Assembly (NCBI GenBank): GCA_023382715.1
Contig: JAHDWP010000007.1
Span: 62,001 to 126,000, forward strand
DNA from: Anaerolineae bacterium
GTDB taxonomy: Bacteria > Chloroflexota > Anaerolineae > Aggregatilineales > Aggregatilineaceae
DNA: 64,000 nucleotides
Direction: 5' to 3'
Position numbers and translations under genes: made by a program
The notes under the pieces: generated by a model
The model's input: the letters and a program-made list of their open reading frames with translations, nothing else
Databases searched by the model: none
Told to the model about the DNA's origin: nothing
Shown: piece after piece, positions 23,365 through 53,671 of the stretch
Layout of the letters: each line of letters begins with the position of its first letter
Numbering within the stretch: the stretch's first letter is position 1

Positions 23365-23393
23365 AGGTCATTCGCGGCGGGGCGCGCGCAACG

Positions 23394-23500
23394 GTTGACA
23401 GCGACTCGCCGGGCGGAGAGGGAGCGGTGAGGCACGTCAGCGCCGAGCGGGGGCGCAGCAGAGCAGCGCCCCTACCGCCTGACGGATTTTGCACGCACCC
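23394..23500. repeat. Dispersed repeat (TTGACAGCGACTCGCCGGGC type), copy 1
   Basis: It begins TTGACAGCGACTCGCCGGGC, contains the stem GGGCGC-AGCAGAGCA-GCGCCC (23451-23471) and ends CCTGACGGATTTTGCACGCA. It is homologous to 37184-37278 and 47693-47788, with fragments at 11518-11548, 43988-44012 and 58031-58076. Confidence 0.85.
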
Positions 23501-37075: not shown

Positions 37076-37433
37076 GGGCACAGGACAACCCCGGTACAGG
37101 CTGGTGGAAGTCCGCCGGTAGTTGCTTGCTGTCCCTCCCCCCAAAAAACCCCTCCCCGCCGGGAGGGAAGGGCTTAGGGGGCGTGCAAAGGCTGACAGCG
37201 ACTCGCCGGGCGGGGGTGAGGTAAGCCAGGGCGCTGCTCTGCTGCGCCCCTACCGCCTGACAGGTTTTGCATGCACCCGGGGCTTAGGGTCGGCGCTCTG
37301 CTCCCTTCCCCCCTCGTGGGGGCAGGGCCAGGGATGGGGGTCTGAGCCAGGCCGGACTGGATGCTTGTTTCCGCTCTGGTGCCCCAGGGCAGGACCTATG
37401 CGGCGACCTCTTTTCGCCGGATCAGGGCGCGCC
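37076..37433. repeat. Convergent gap filled with repeats
   Basis: CCCCTCCCCGCCGGGAGGG-type elements lie at 37133-37180 and 37290-37345. Between them is copy 2 of the TTGACAGCGACTCGCCGGGC repeat. No gene, and no clear T-tract terminator, is seen in this 358 bp. Confidence 0.75.
37184..37278. repeat. Dispersed repeat (GACAGCGACTCGCCGGGC type), copy 2 with flipped centre
   Basis: Same ends as copies at 23394 and 47693, but the hairpin loop between GGGCGC and GCGCCC (37229-37249) reads TGCTCTGCT, the exact reverse complement of AGCAGAGCA in the other two copies. Confidence 0.85.
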
Positions 37434-45027: not shown

Positions 45028-45618
45028 TCATTCCGGCGCGGGCTGGGCCGGCGGGCGCAGCCCCAGCGCCGCGACCATCGCCGCGTAGCCGGGCCAGCCG
45101 TCGCGCAGCCGGCCATACATCAGCTCATCATGCCAGCGGCCATCGGCCAGCGTCGCCCGGCGCTGGCGCGCTTCCAGCGCAAAGCCGACCTTCTCCATCT
45201 GGCGCATGACGCGGGCGTTGAGGCTCATCGTGCCCAGCCAGACCTTGCGCATATCGAGCCAGTCGAAAGCATAGTCCACGACGAGCAGCAGGGCATCGGT
45301 GCCGTAGCCGCCGCCCCAGTAGGCAGGCTCGCCGATCACTGCGCCCAGGTCGGCCACGCGGTGATGTTCCGACAGCCAGTTGATGCCGATGCCGCCGATA
45401 GGGGTGCCGTCGGTGGTCAGGATGCCGAATATCACCCCTGTTTCGTGACGTTCGGAGCGGCACCACTCTTCGTACTCGCGCTTCAGCGTGGCCTTCGAGA
45501 TGATGAAGTGCTCCCCCATGCTGCCCCAGAAGCGCGACTCATTGTTCACCCAGTCATGCTCGCGCGCTCTGAACCGCTCGTCATAGGGCACCAGGTTAAC
45601 CAGCGTCCCGTAGAGCAT
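45028..45618 (-). CDS. GNAT acetyltransferase, tandem paralog 4 (RimJ/RimL type)
   Basis: 196 residues. Acetyl-CoA-binding motif A is GEPAYWGGGYGTDALLLVVDYAF, followed by LDMRKVWLGTMSLNARVMRQMEKVGF, the B-motif helix and strand typical of RimJ/RimL family N-acetyltransferases. It is closely related to the two genes upstream in the array. ATG at 45618 is only 3 bp after the previous stop codon, so it is operonic. The acceptor (protein N-terminus, amino sugar or small molecule) is unknown. Confidence 0.88.
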   Translation of the reverse strand: MLYGTLVNLVPYDERFRAREHDWVNNESRFWGSMGEHFIISKATLKREYEEWCRSERHETGVIFGILTTDGTPIGGIGINWLSEHHRVADLGAVIGEPAYWGGGYGTDALLLVVDYAFDWLDMRKVWLGTMSLNARVMRQMEKVGFALEARQRRATLADGRWHDELMYGRLRDGWPGYAAMVAALGLRPPAQPAPE

Positions 45619-45621
45619 CGC

Positions 45622-46200
45622 TCACCCCTGCGCCCGCAGCCCCAGCCGCTCGATCATCGCCTCGCGCCCCGGCCACTCCTCGCGCTGCACCCCGTAGAAC
45701 AGCAGGTCGTGCCACGCACCGTCGGCCAGAGTCGCCCGGCGCTGGCGCGCTTCCAGCGCAAAGCCGACCTTCTCCATCTGGCGCGTCACGCGCGCATTAA
45801 GGCTCATCGTCACCAGCCACAGCCGGCGCAGATCGAGCCAGTCGAAGGCGTAGTCCACGATGAGCAGCAGGGCGTCGGTGCCATAGCCGCCGCCCCAGTA
45901 CTGCGGCTCGCCAATCTGCACGCCCAGAATGCCCAGGCGCAGATGAGGCTTGATGTCGCCGACGACAAAGAGGCCGATGGGCGTGCCATCCTTCGCCTGG
46001 ATGCCGAATCCGCTGTGCAGCTCCTGATCCTTGCGCGCGGCGCGCTCTTCCTGGCGGCGCTTGACCACCGCCAGCGACACAAACTGGCGGTCGCCCACAT
46101 CGCCCCAGAACGCCGCTTCCCCGTTCTCCCAGCGGTGCTCCAGCGCATTGAAGCGCTCGCCGAGCGGCACCAGGTCTACGAGCAATCCCTCGATCTTCAT
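45622..46200 (-). CDS. GNAT acetyltransferase, tandem paralog 3
   Basis: 192 residues from ATG at 46200 (GGCAGAG upstream). It shares GEPQYWGGGYGTDALLLIVD and NARVTRQMEKVGFALEARQR with its neighbours, with a distinctive DLRRLWLVTMSL. The first 80 residues, which carry the acceptor site in this family, differ more (AAFWGDVGDRQFVSLAVV). The upstream extension of the open frame overlaps paralog 2 and was rejected. 7 bp separate it from the preceding gene's stop. Confidence 0.88.
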   Translation of the reverse strand: MKIEGLLVDLVPLGERFNALEHRWENGEAAFWGDVGDRQFVSLAVVKRRQEERAARKDQELHSGFGIQAKDGTPIGLFVVGDIKPHLRLGILGVQIGEPQYWGGGYGTDALLLIVDYAFDWLDLRRLWLVTMSLNARVTRQMEKVGFALEARQRRATLADGAWHDLLFYGVQREEWPGREAMIERLGLRAQG

Positions 46201-46207
46201 CTCTGCC

Positions 46208-46816
46208 TCATTTCGCGCCGGACTCCGGCGCTGTGGCGCGCTCGCGCAGGCCCAGTTGCTCGACCAGCGCCGCGCGGCCCGGCCACTCCTCGCGCAGCAG
46301 CCCGTAGGCCAGCCAGTCGTACCACACACCGTCGGCCAGCGCGCTCTGGCGCTGGCGCACCTCCAGCCGAAAGCCGACCTTCTCCATCTGGCGCATGACG
46401 CGGGCGTTCATGCTGGTCGTCATCAGCCACGCCTTGCGCACGTCGAGCCAGTCGAAAGTGTAGTCCAGCAGCAGGAGCAGGGCATCGGTGCCGTAGCCGC
46501 CGCCCCAGTACTGCGGCTCGCCGATCTTTGCGCCAAGCATAGCCAGACGATGATGCGCCGACAGCCAGTTGATGCCGAAATAGCCCAGCGGTGTGCCGTC
46601 CTTGCTCTGCACACCGAAGGCCACTCCCAGCTCGTCGTTGATGTCCCCGCTCTCTTCGGCCCACTGGGCGTGGCGCGCGGCGATCATCGCCTGTGTCATG
46701 AAATGGCGCTCGCCGCCGCCCGACCAAAAGCTGGCCTGGTTGTTCATCCAGCGGTGATCGCGCTCCAGAAACTCCTTGCCATAGGGCACCAGGTTCACCA
46801 GCAGCCCTTCGAGCAT
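46208..46816 (-). CDS. GNAT acetyltransferase, tandem paralog 2
   Basis: 202 residues from ATG at 46816. Motif A reads GEPQYWGGGYGTDALLLLLD and the following helix WLMTTSMNARVMRQMEKVGF, nearly the same as paralogs 3 and 4. The N-terminal half includes YGKEFLERDHRWMNNQASFW and MTQAMIAARHAQW, again divergent between copies. The C-terminal REEWPGRAALVEQLGL is also shared with paralog 3 (REEWPGREAMIERLGL). It lies 55 bp after paralog 1. The long upstream open frame is a shadow in paralog 1. Confidence 0.88.
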   Translation of the reverse strand: MLEGLLVNLVPYGKEFLERDHRWMNNQASFWSGGGERHFMTQAMIAARHAQWAEESGDINDELGVAFGVQSKDGTPLGYFGINWLSAHHRLAMLGAKIGEPQYWGGGYGTDALLLLLDYTFDWLDVRKAWLMTTSMNARVMRQMEKVGFRLEVRQRQSALADGVWYDWLAYGLLREEWPGRAALVEQLGLRERATAPESGAK

Positions 46817-47495: not shown

Positions 47496-47867
47496 GGGTA
47501 TCGGTGCTCCTTTTCGGGGTATCCGCGATACAGTAACCGGGCTGCAGGGCGGCGCTCCGTTTCACCCGCAGGGCGTACTGCCATAGGCTCCTACGATCTC
47601 ACTCTGCCCGGCGTGATGGTCCGCAGTCACGGGAGCAAGTGTTGTCGAGACGCGCGGGTTTGTCAAGGGCGGGCAGCGGGCGCAGTGGGCGCGCAAAGGC
47701 TGACAGCGACTCGCCGGGCGGGGGTGAGGTCAGCCAGGGCGCAGCAGAGCAGCGCCCCTACCGCCTGACAGATTTTGCACGCACCCCAGCGGGCGCGGTG
47801 AGTGGCTGAGCGCCGCATGGCACAAAGGATTCTACGAAGGAAACCCGCTTAACGGTGCGCCCGGCGA
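47496..47867. other. Intergenic region with a dispersed repeat
   Basis: This 372-bp gap between two minus-strand units carries one full repeat copy (47693-47788) and no supported gene. A weak minus-strand -10-like sequence cannot be assigned confidently. Confidence 0.6.
47693..47788. repeat. Dispersed repeat (GACAGCGACTCGCCGGGC type), copy 3
   Basis: GCAAAGGCTGACAGCGACTC at the left, GGGCGC-AGCAGAGCA-GCGCCC in the middle (47737-47757), CCTGACAGATTTTGCACGCA at the right. It is about 90 percent identical by eye to 37184-37278 outside the flipped centre. Confidence 0.85.
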
Positions 47868-51871: not shown

Positions 51872-53671
51872 CTAGAACTCCCACAGCCAGATGTCGTTAA
51901 GCTGGCAGTACGTCTGCGCCGTCTGGCCCGCGTCATCTGCCGGGACGTACATCTCCAGGGCAAGCTCGCCCGCCTTCGGCACGAACTCCGTGTCGGCGAC
52001 CAGCACCCCATTGACGTACATCAGCGTGAAGCCTTCCATGGCGATGACCAGCGCGCGGTTGGTGACGCCTGGGCCAGGGATCACGGCGCTGGTTTCCAGT
52101 AGCACGCTGCTGTCGAGCATCTGCCCGTTGGCGTCGAACTCGCCCAGCAGCGCCCACCCGTCCTCGAAGACCAGTGCCGAATCGCTGGCGGTGCCGGAGG
52201 CGCGGAAGTGCATCCCGCAGCCGGCCCCCTCGCCGGAGTAGATCAGGCGCGCGTCAAAGCCGAGGACGAAGTTGCGGAACGTCTTGCCTCGCCCCAGCGG
52301 GTACCAGTTGAAGCCTTCGGATGACGTATCGCCGTAGCTGCTCGGAACGGTGAGCGAGATCCCACCGCCCACCGGCACGATGCCCAGCATACTCAGCTCA
52401 TTCACGATTGCGGCTGGCGAGGCGTTCGCCCAGCTCTCAAGTTGCGCCGGGTATGTGGACTGCGCAACCGGCGTGTTGGTGGGAAGTGCTAATGGCAGGG
52501 TGGGCGTCGGCGGTACCGGTGTCTTGGTGGGAAGCGCCAACGGCAGGGTGGGCGCCGGCGGCACCGGTGTCTTGCCCGCACCCAGCGACCCCAGCAGCCC
52601 CGGCTTGGTCGGCGTCGGCTGCACAATGCCGGCAGTACCCGTCCCTGAGGTGAGGGGGCGCGTCACCACCACGTTGTCTGCGAATATTGTCAGCGTGTCG
52701 AGCTGGTCCACCGTCGTGGCGGCGGCCAGCCCGTTCAGGCCCTCGCTGGCGTAGTTGGCAGGGTCGGATACTTCGGCCACAAGGCGCCCGTTGAAATACA
52801 GCTTGAAGACGTTGCCCTGCATCAGCACGCCAACCTGTGGCTGGATGTCGCTGCCATCAACGACCGGGCTGACCGTCCATTCCTGGACGGTATACCACTC
52901 TCCCTCTCCGCCGAAATAGTACACCGAGTAGTCGCTATCGCTGCTGAACGTCACCGTGTAGAAGTGATCCCCTGGCTCGTCCGAGCGTAGTACAAACCCA
53001 TACTCGAAGTAACTCGGCGAGCCGTCAATCGTGAAGTCCGCCTGGATGTAGGAGTCGTCCCAGATCAGGTCGTCGCCGGTGGGCAGGGTGAAGGCGACCA
53101 GATTGTCCTTCATCACCTCGAGGCGCAGCTGCTCCTTGAAGATGGTCACCGTCATGTTCGCCGAAGCGTAGGGTTCCCACTCCATGTGCAGGGAGTCCGT
53201 GCTGGGGCCGAAGGTGTCCCACTTGGTCAGGCCCGCGAAGCCGGGCAGCAGGCGCGCTTCGAACGTCCCGGCGGTATTCCCCTGGCGGGTCAGGGTGGCC
53301 GTGCAGACCCCGTCAGCGGGCATGGTGAACGCCTCGCTGACGGTGACACCCGGCGTCCCCGGCACGACCGTGCCATAGGCAAAGGGGTTGCCCTGCGGGT
53401 CCTGCAAGGTGGCGTCCACAGCCAGGTCGCCGGAAGTCGTCCGCACGACGAGCGACCCGACGCCGGTGGCTTTGCACTCAAACGAGTACACCGCCTGGGG
53501 TATCGCCGCATCGAGCTGACCGGAGATCGGCCCCGGATCATCGAACGAGAACGAGAGTTGCGCGGTGGGCGCAGCCTGAACGGCGCGCGGCACCAGCGCC
53601 ATCCCACCCATTGCCAGCACCAACACCAGCCCAAGGCTGGCGATCACGCGCTCACTGCTTCTGGCATCCAT
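51872..53671 (-). CDS. Secreted protein with PPC-like and two LamG/DUF1080-like domains, paralog of the next gene
   Basis: 599 residues from ATG at 53671 with a strong CAGGAGGT site. A signal peptide ends near AVQAAP. It shares the layout of its neighbour: FSFDDPGPISGQLDAAIPQ, a PPC-like module with MPADGVCTATLTRQGNTAGT, a first sandwich (SPSYFEYGFVLRSDEPGDHF, LYFNGRLVAEV) and a second (AGCGMHFRASGTASDSALVF, LMYVNGVLVADTEF). Between them lies a linker of near-perfect repeats, LPLALPTKTPVPPTPT then LPLALPTNTPVAQ, from a recent in-frame DNA duplication (52480-52570). The function is unknown. Confidence 0.72.
   Translation of the reverse strand: MDARSSERVIASLGLVLVLAMGGMALVPRAVQAAPTAQLSFSFDDPGPISGQLDAAIPQAVYSFECKATGVGSLVVRTTSGDLAVDATLQDPQGNPFAYGTVVPGTPGVTVSEAFTMPADGVCTATLTRQGNTAGTFEARLLPGFAGLTKWDTFGPSTDSLHMEWEPYASANMTVTIFKEQLRLEVMKDNLVAFTLPTGDDLIWDDSYIQADFTIDGSPSYFEYGFVLRSDEPGDHFYTVTFSSDSDYSVYYFGGEGEWYTVQEWTVSPVVDGSDIQPQVGVLMQGNVFKLYFNGRLVAEVSDPANYASEGLNGLAAATTVDQLDTLTIFADNVVVTRPLTSGTGTAGIVQPTPTKPGLLGSLGAGKTPVPPAPTLPLALPTKTPVPPTPTLPLALPTNTPVAQSTYPAQLESWANASPAAIVNELSMLGIVPVGGGISLTVPSSYGDTSSEGFNWYPLGRGKTFRNFVLGFDARLIYSGEGAGCGMHFRASGTASDSALVFEDGWALLGEFDANGQMLDSSVLLETSAVIPGPGVTNRALVIAMEGFTLMYVNGVLVADTEFVPKAGELALEMYVPADDAGQTAQTYCQLNDIWLWEF

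Follow-up and report, generated by a model that had tools for sequence, protein, structure and literature searches.

Exact inversion of the loop between intact stem arms occurs in many copies of a short hairpin in the genome of an Anaerolineae bacterium. The copy that drew attention to it lies at 37 kb in the window, the 64,000-nt stretch analysed here (G000:C7:62001-126000 of a 3.88-Mb draft genome in 82 contigs), inside a short mobile repeat that resembles a miniature inverted-repeat transposable element (MITE). A second hairpin of the same repeats behaves alike, and loop inversion has probably arisen recurrently by template switching during replication. An earlier note on the window had described copies at 23.4, 37.2 and 47.7 kb with common ends and the stem GGGCGC/GCGCCC, of which the 37-kb copy alone has an exactly reverse-complemented 9-nt loop. 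Direct reading confirms this description: the loop TGCTCTGCT is the reverse complement of AGCAGAGCA. Point mutation can reasonably be dismissed as the origin of TGCTCTGCT because 5 of its 9 positions are changed and the result is an exact reverse complement. The 37-kb copy reads CCAGGGCGC-TGCTCTGCT-GCGCCCCTAC and the 47-kb copy CCAGGGCGC-AGCAGAGCA-GCGCCCCTAC; to the left and right of the hairpin, the two elements are alike almost throughout. The mosaic 23-kb copy differs from them in its left interior, and all three have a common right side (CCCTACCGCCTGAC.G.TTTTGCA.GCACCC). The hairpin folds as ((((((.((...)).)))))), so that the 9-nt “loop” is built of one mismatch (T.T or A.A), two GC pairs and a TCT/AGA loop of 3 nt, with a fold-energy stability z of -3 to -4.

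Loop orientation was tabulated over copies genome-wide, which were examined as stretches taken around matches. A neighbouring module outside the flipped segment, ...T(G/T)ACCTCACCCCC, served as the orientation anchor; such flanking modules were used because the GTAG foot alone, tried and rejected as an anchor, is ambiguous where both feet are degenerate. Flank-anchored copies in the host genome comprise 61 normal and 11 flipped loops (~15%), or 57 and 11 after stricter duplicate removal, and the copies do not carry unrelated loops. Distances to the common loop are bimodal, with values of 0–2 or 4–6 and never 3, and the gap at 3 indicates that flipped loops are not point-mutation intermediates. 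The right modules next to flipped copies belong to at least three subfamilies, several left modules are represented, and the flipped loop GGCAGAGCT is found in two copies (L074 and L263) that may stem from one flip.

Recurrence was assessed on a tree built from flanking sequence with the hairpin excluded. This tree has 10 changes for 10 flipped copies (shuffled-label mean of 9.4), and all 500 label shuffles gave change counts as low as that observed; strongly supported branches force only three changes. Flipped copy L058 is 1% divergent from normal copy L233 in the 75 nt adjoining the hairpin, and L070 and L282, again a flipped copy and a near-identical normal neighbour, are also 1% apart over 75 nt. 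The second, unrelated hairpin, CCCCCTCTCC-loop-GGAGAGGGGG, has anchored host loops ACGCAGAT (seven copies) versus ATCTGCGT (two) and ACACGC (seven) versus GCGTGT (one), so that the 7 distinct loops include two reverse-complement pairs where 0.001 is expected. In two same-genus relatives used for comparison (sisters G001 and G004), its loops include AGCAT/ATGCT and AACGT/ACGTT, two pairs among 15 (P 0.0005). The features expected of template switching are therefore present: exact reverse-complement loops of unchanged length within intact stems, and recurrence that is independent of stem sequence, although the tree is weakly resolved.

Comparison with the sisters provides one site at which the two orientations face each other. 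At C3:54852 the host has CAGGGCGC-CGCTCTGCT-GCGCCCCTAC, and G001 (C190) has CAGGGCGC-AGCAGAGCA-GCGCCCCTCC, with opposite loops and a conserved right flank beside a downstream gene that we take to be chorismate-synthase-like. This arrangement is suggestive of an in-place inversion at a site that is occupied in both species. Five flipped copies, at 37 kb, C5:41010, C18:13130, C22:19316 and C38:8576, face sister sites where there is no insertion, another repeat or the end of a contig; with no common insertion, these loci neither support nor refute in-place inversion. The site orthologous to the 47-kb copy in G001 is filled by a tandem array in which the repeat is longer, with loops in the orientation seen in the host genome. 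In this array (L349, G001:C413:7650-8900), units of ~265 bp combine intergenic sequence of the sister with the longer repeat version.

Template switching could produce these flips as follows. The hairpin would form in DNA that is single-stranded while being replicated or repaired, and the polymerase would at times change template at one arm, either crossing to the opposite strand or going around the hairpin, copy the hairpin top in reverse, and switch back in the other arm. Only the hairpin top would be reverse-complemented because the arms are self-complementary. Repeated switching could then leave ~15% of copies in the minority orientation, with the 37-kb element among them. At the molecular level we infer that template switching is responsible, in preference to cruciform cutting or repair by annealing; the flips would be neutral by-products without function.

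Several results weigh against recurrent inversion by template switching. No flip occurs among about 22 anchored sister copies (12 + 10), and the flank tree is short and poorly resolved. Left modules at C3:54852 and its G001 counterpart are non-homologous, so that two separate insertions are possible there. Hairpins with conserved arms in between-species comparisons (58, 33, 36; 187 comparisons) include only one that is flipped, and 20 kb of the window compared with the sisters yielded no flip in 187 conserved-arm comparisons; most of these hairpins are probably chance inverted repeats. Loop orientations were taken from assembled sequence rather than from reads.

The carrier, judged from its sequence, is a non-autonomous MITE family with many copies in the host genome, because it has terminal inverted repeats (TIRs), target-site duplications (TSDs) and an empty sister site. 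Its TIR begins GGGTGCGTGCAAA, and the element ends are GGGTGCGTGCAAAAYCTGTCAG and GGGTGCGTGCAAAGGCTGACAG; at up to two mismatches, TIR ends occur 166 times genome-wide versus 0 for the control. The empty sister site reveals an 8-bp target duplication, GCTACACC, TSDs of 7–10 bp flank 8 of 20 scored copies, and one further sister site lacks the element. As in other MITEs, the copies are 100–330 bp long (the ~100–330 bp spacing being that of the TIR pairs listed), have TIRs and target duplications, and are too short to encode a transposase; they differ in that no autonomous parent occurs among the listed TIR pairs, beyond which no further search was made. The repeats are visibly mosaic. One copy (L017, G000:C10:63337-63435) has GGGGGTGAGGTCA adjoining the hairpin where other copies have TGACCTCACCCCC, a larger inverted patch that is possibly another strand-switch product.

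A transposing, mosaic carrier invites the explanation that a few old inversions arose and that the flipped form then spread by transposition or by swapping between repeats. The empty site with its 8-bp duplication, the TSDs and the possible single flip behind both GGCAGAGCT copies are consistent with such spread, but flipped copies are unclustered on the flank tree, involve diverse left and right modules, and are accompanied by flips in the second hairpin, so this explanation is unlikely, if the most serious competitor. If an extruded cruciform were cut at its base and religated the other way round, or if repair proceeded by microhomology annealing, the same product would arise from a GC-rich stem with favourable fold energy, and sequence alone cannot tell these routes from polymerase switching. 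A 21-nt palindrome is, however, short for cruciform extrusion in vivo, and we regard both routes as improbable. Similarly improbable is a dedicated hairpin-processing activity that inverts tops at a high ongoing rate, so that each locus would be a mixture of orientations in the population; if true, the repeats would be natural recorders of strand switching.

The earlier note had attributed the flip to strand-switching during replication or site-specific inversion at hairpins, active in this genome. Recurrent past inversion of hairpin tops is upheld by the tally (11 versus 57–61), the scatter on the tree, the second hairpin and the one site in a sister species, and strand-switching fits it; site-specific inversion is not supported. 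A recombinase specific for the stem that turned the top around, as happens in invertons, would give exact inversion between inverted repeats, but GGGCGC and CCCCCTCTCC have nothing in common, their arms are only 6–10 bp, and both invert exactly, which points to a process driven by structure rather than to a recombinase that reads sequence. The 9-nt loop is also too small for a promoter or coding segment, and more than 100 dispersed sites are involved; on these grounds, rather than on a genome-wide invertase search, a recombinase is very improbable. An assembly or amplification artefact is the least credible explanation: the draft has 82 contigs and several contig ends fall within these repeats, but the 37-kb copy with the flipped loop is bordered by unique sequence and has a target duplication of its own, 11 copies and a second hairpin are affected, and a mis-join requires at least one real flipped junction as its source.

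Inversion of hairpin loops is a known process in plastids, yeast and bacterial ribosomal RNA (rRNA), and the present case is an instance that is unusually easy to count. Template-switch loop inversions have been described in rRNA, including, for loops of 7–8 nt, in two bacterial phyla (PMC8794818), and inversions of inverted-repeat spacers in yeast (PMC8604942). The flips described here are like them in exact reverse-complementing of the top, an unchanged stem and recurrence, and differ in that they occur in a bacterial mobile repeat of high copy number, with a hairpin arm that runs for 6 bp without interruption (PMC8794818, PMC8604942). Minute palindrome-associated inversions in chloroplast spacers such as trnH-psbA are likewise recurrent loop inversions and can vary within species, whereas those reported here affect dispersed repeats of a bacterial chromosome rather than a single spacer (PMC2903610). 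Invertons, which are phase-variable invertible segments (PMC11892184), also have DNA inverted between inverted repeats; the present hairpins differ from them in their tiny arms, 9-nt segment and lack of regulatory cargo. Most reports of loop inversion concern isolated events, in rRNA, genes or plastid spacers. Many near-identical hairpins, of which ~15% are flipped and whose orientation can be read from the flanks, amount to replicate loci within one genome, from which one could estimate the frequency of strand switching in bacterial replication where stems are very short. They also warn against scoring such substitution clusters as several mutations.

The hairpin itself is a GTAG-footed palindrome of the repetitive extragenic palindromic (REP) kind, with more than 100 copies, which also occurs in mosaic contexts outside the carrier MITE. 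Its 19-mer core has 125 genome-wide matches at up to one mismatch versus 0 for a reversed control, and 140 flank-distinct core matches at up to three mismatches lie within the stretches examined. It has the GTAG beside a short stem-loop, the high copy number and the intergenic position (the last judged from the window copies) that define GTAG REPs. Chloroflexi are among the listed hosts of GTAG-tagged REPs, and REPtrons can be lost (PMC3733652). The GTAG foot by a short GC-rich stem-loop and the copy number are points of likeness with those REPs; here, in contrast, the hairpins lie inside MITEs with their own TIRs, RAYT was not found, and both loop orientations occur (PMC3733652). A PF01797 profile search of the genome found no RAYT (Y1 transposase), its matches being limited to a TnpA of the IS200/IS605 type, next to a TnpB-like gene, and, weakly, part of a 616-aa frame; RAYT-driven flipping was therefore rejected. 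The TnpA-TnpB pair (L292, G000:C3, ~52990-53343) adjoins a tyrosyl-tRNA-synthetase-like gene ~1.5 kb from one flipped hairpin, which is proximity only. The weak Y1 match (L293, G000:C26:8655-8939) lies in the C-terminal part of the 616-aa open frame and is possibly a domesticated domain. A GTAGGGGCGC stem with a GTAG foot, mostly with a 3-nt ACT/AGT loop, also occurs in metagenome-assembled genomes of other phyla (loci L119-L211), including Acidobacteriota, Sumerlaeota and Planctomycetota, with tandem mosaic arrays in Sumerlaeota. The ACT/AGT loops of Sumerlaeota were left uncounted as inversions because inverting a 3-nt ACT equals one C-to-G change.

Coordinates of the three MITE copies, their hairpins and target-site duplications in the window
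Feature	Position	Strand	Remarks
37-kb MITE copy (flipped)	37179..37278	unstranded	TIR 37179-37198 and 37257-37278, common to other copies
Left TSD GGGCTTAGGG, 37-kb copy	37170..37179	+	final G doubles as element end
Right TSD GGGCTTAGGG, 37-kb copy	37280..37289	+	from sequence
Hairpin GGGCGC-TGCTCTGCT-GCGCCC	37229..37249	+	loop inverted relative to element ends
Arms and loop, 37-kb copy	37229-37234 (GGGCGC), 37235-37243 (loop), 37244-37249 (GCGCCC)	+	inverted 9-nt loop TGCTCTGCT
47-kb MITE copy	47687..47786	unstranded	common loop orientation
Imperfect TSD CAGCGGGCGC, 47-kb copy	47674-47683 / 47787-47796		from sequence
Hairpin GGGCGC-AGCAGAGCA-GCGCCC, 47-kb copy	47737..47757	+	common orientation
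Arms and loop, 47-kb copy	47737-47742 (GGGCGC), 47743-47751 (loop), 47752-47757 (GCGCCC)		loop AGCAGAGCA
23-kb mosaic MITE copy	23380..23500	unstranded	common loop orientation
Hairpin GGGCGC-AGCAGAGCA-GCGCCC, 23-kb copy	23451..23471	+	common orientation
Arms and loop, 23-kb copy	23451-23456 (GGGCGC), 23457-23465 (loop), 23466-23471 (GCGCCC)		loop AGCAGAGCA

The 10-bp direct repeats GGGCTTAGGG that bracket the 37-kb copy are perfect. This copy had been placed in the gap after glgA, which is right: the gene upstream is a starch/glycogen synthase (Glyco_transf_5), and a histidine kinase gene lies on the other side. An Rfam scan of the window returned no family at gathering thresholds. Elsewhere in the window, positions 45055-46600 have multiple self-similar matches in the sister genomes, which suggest duplicated paralogous segments.
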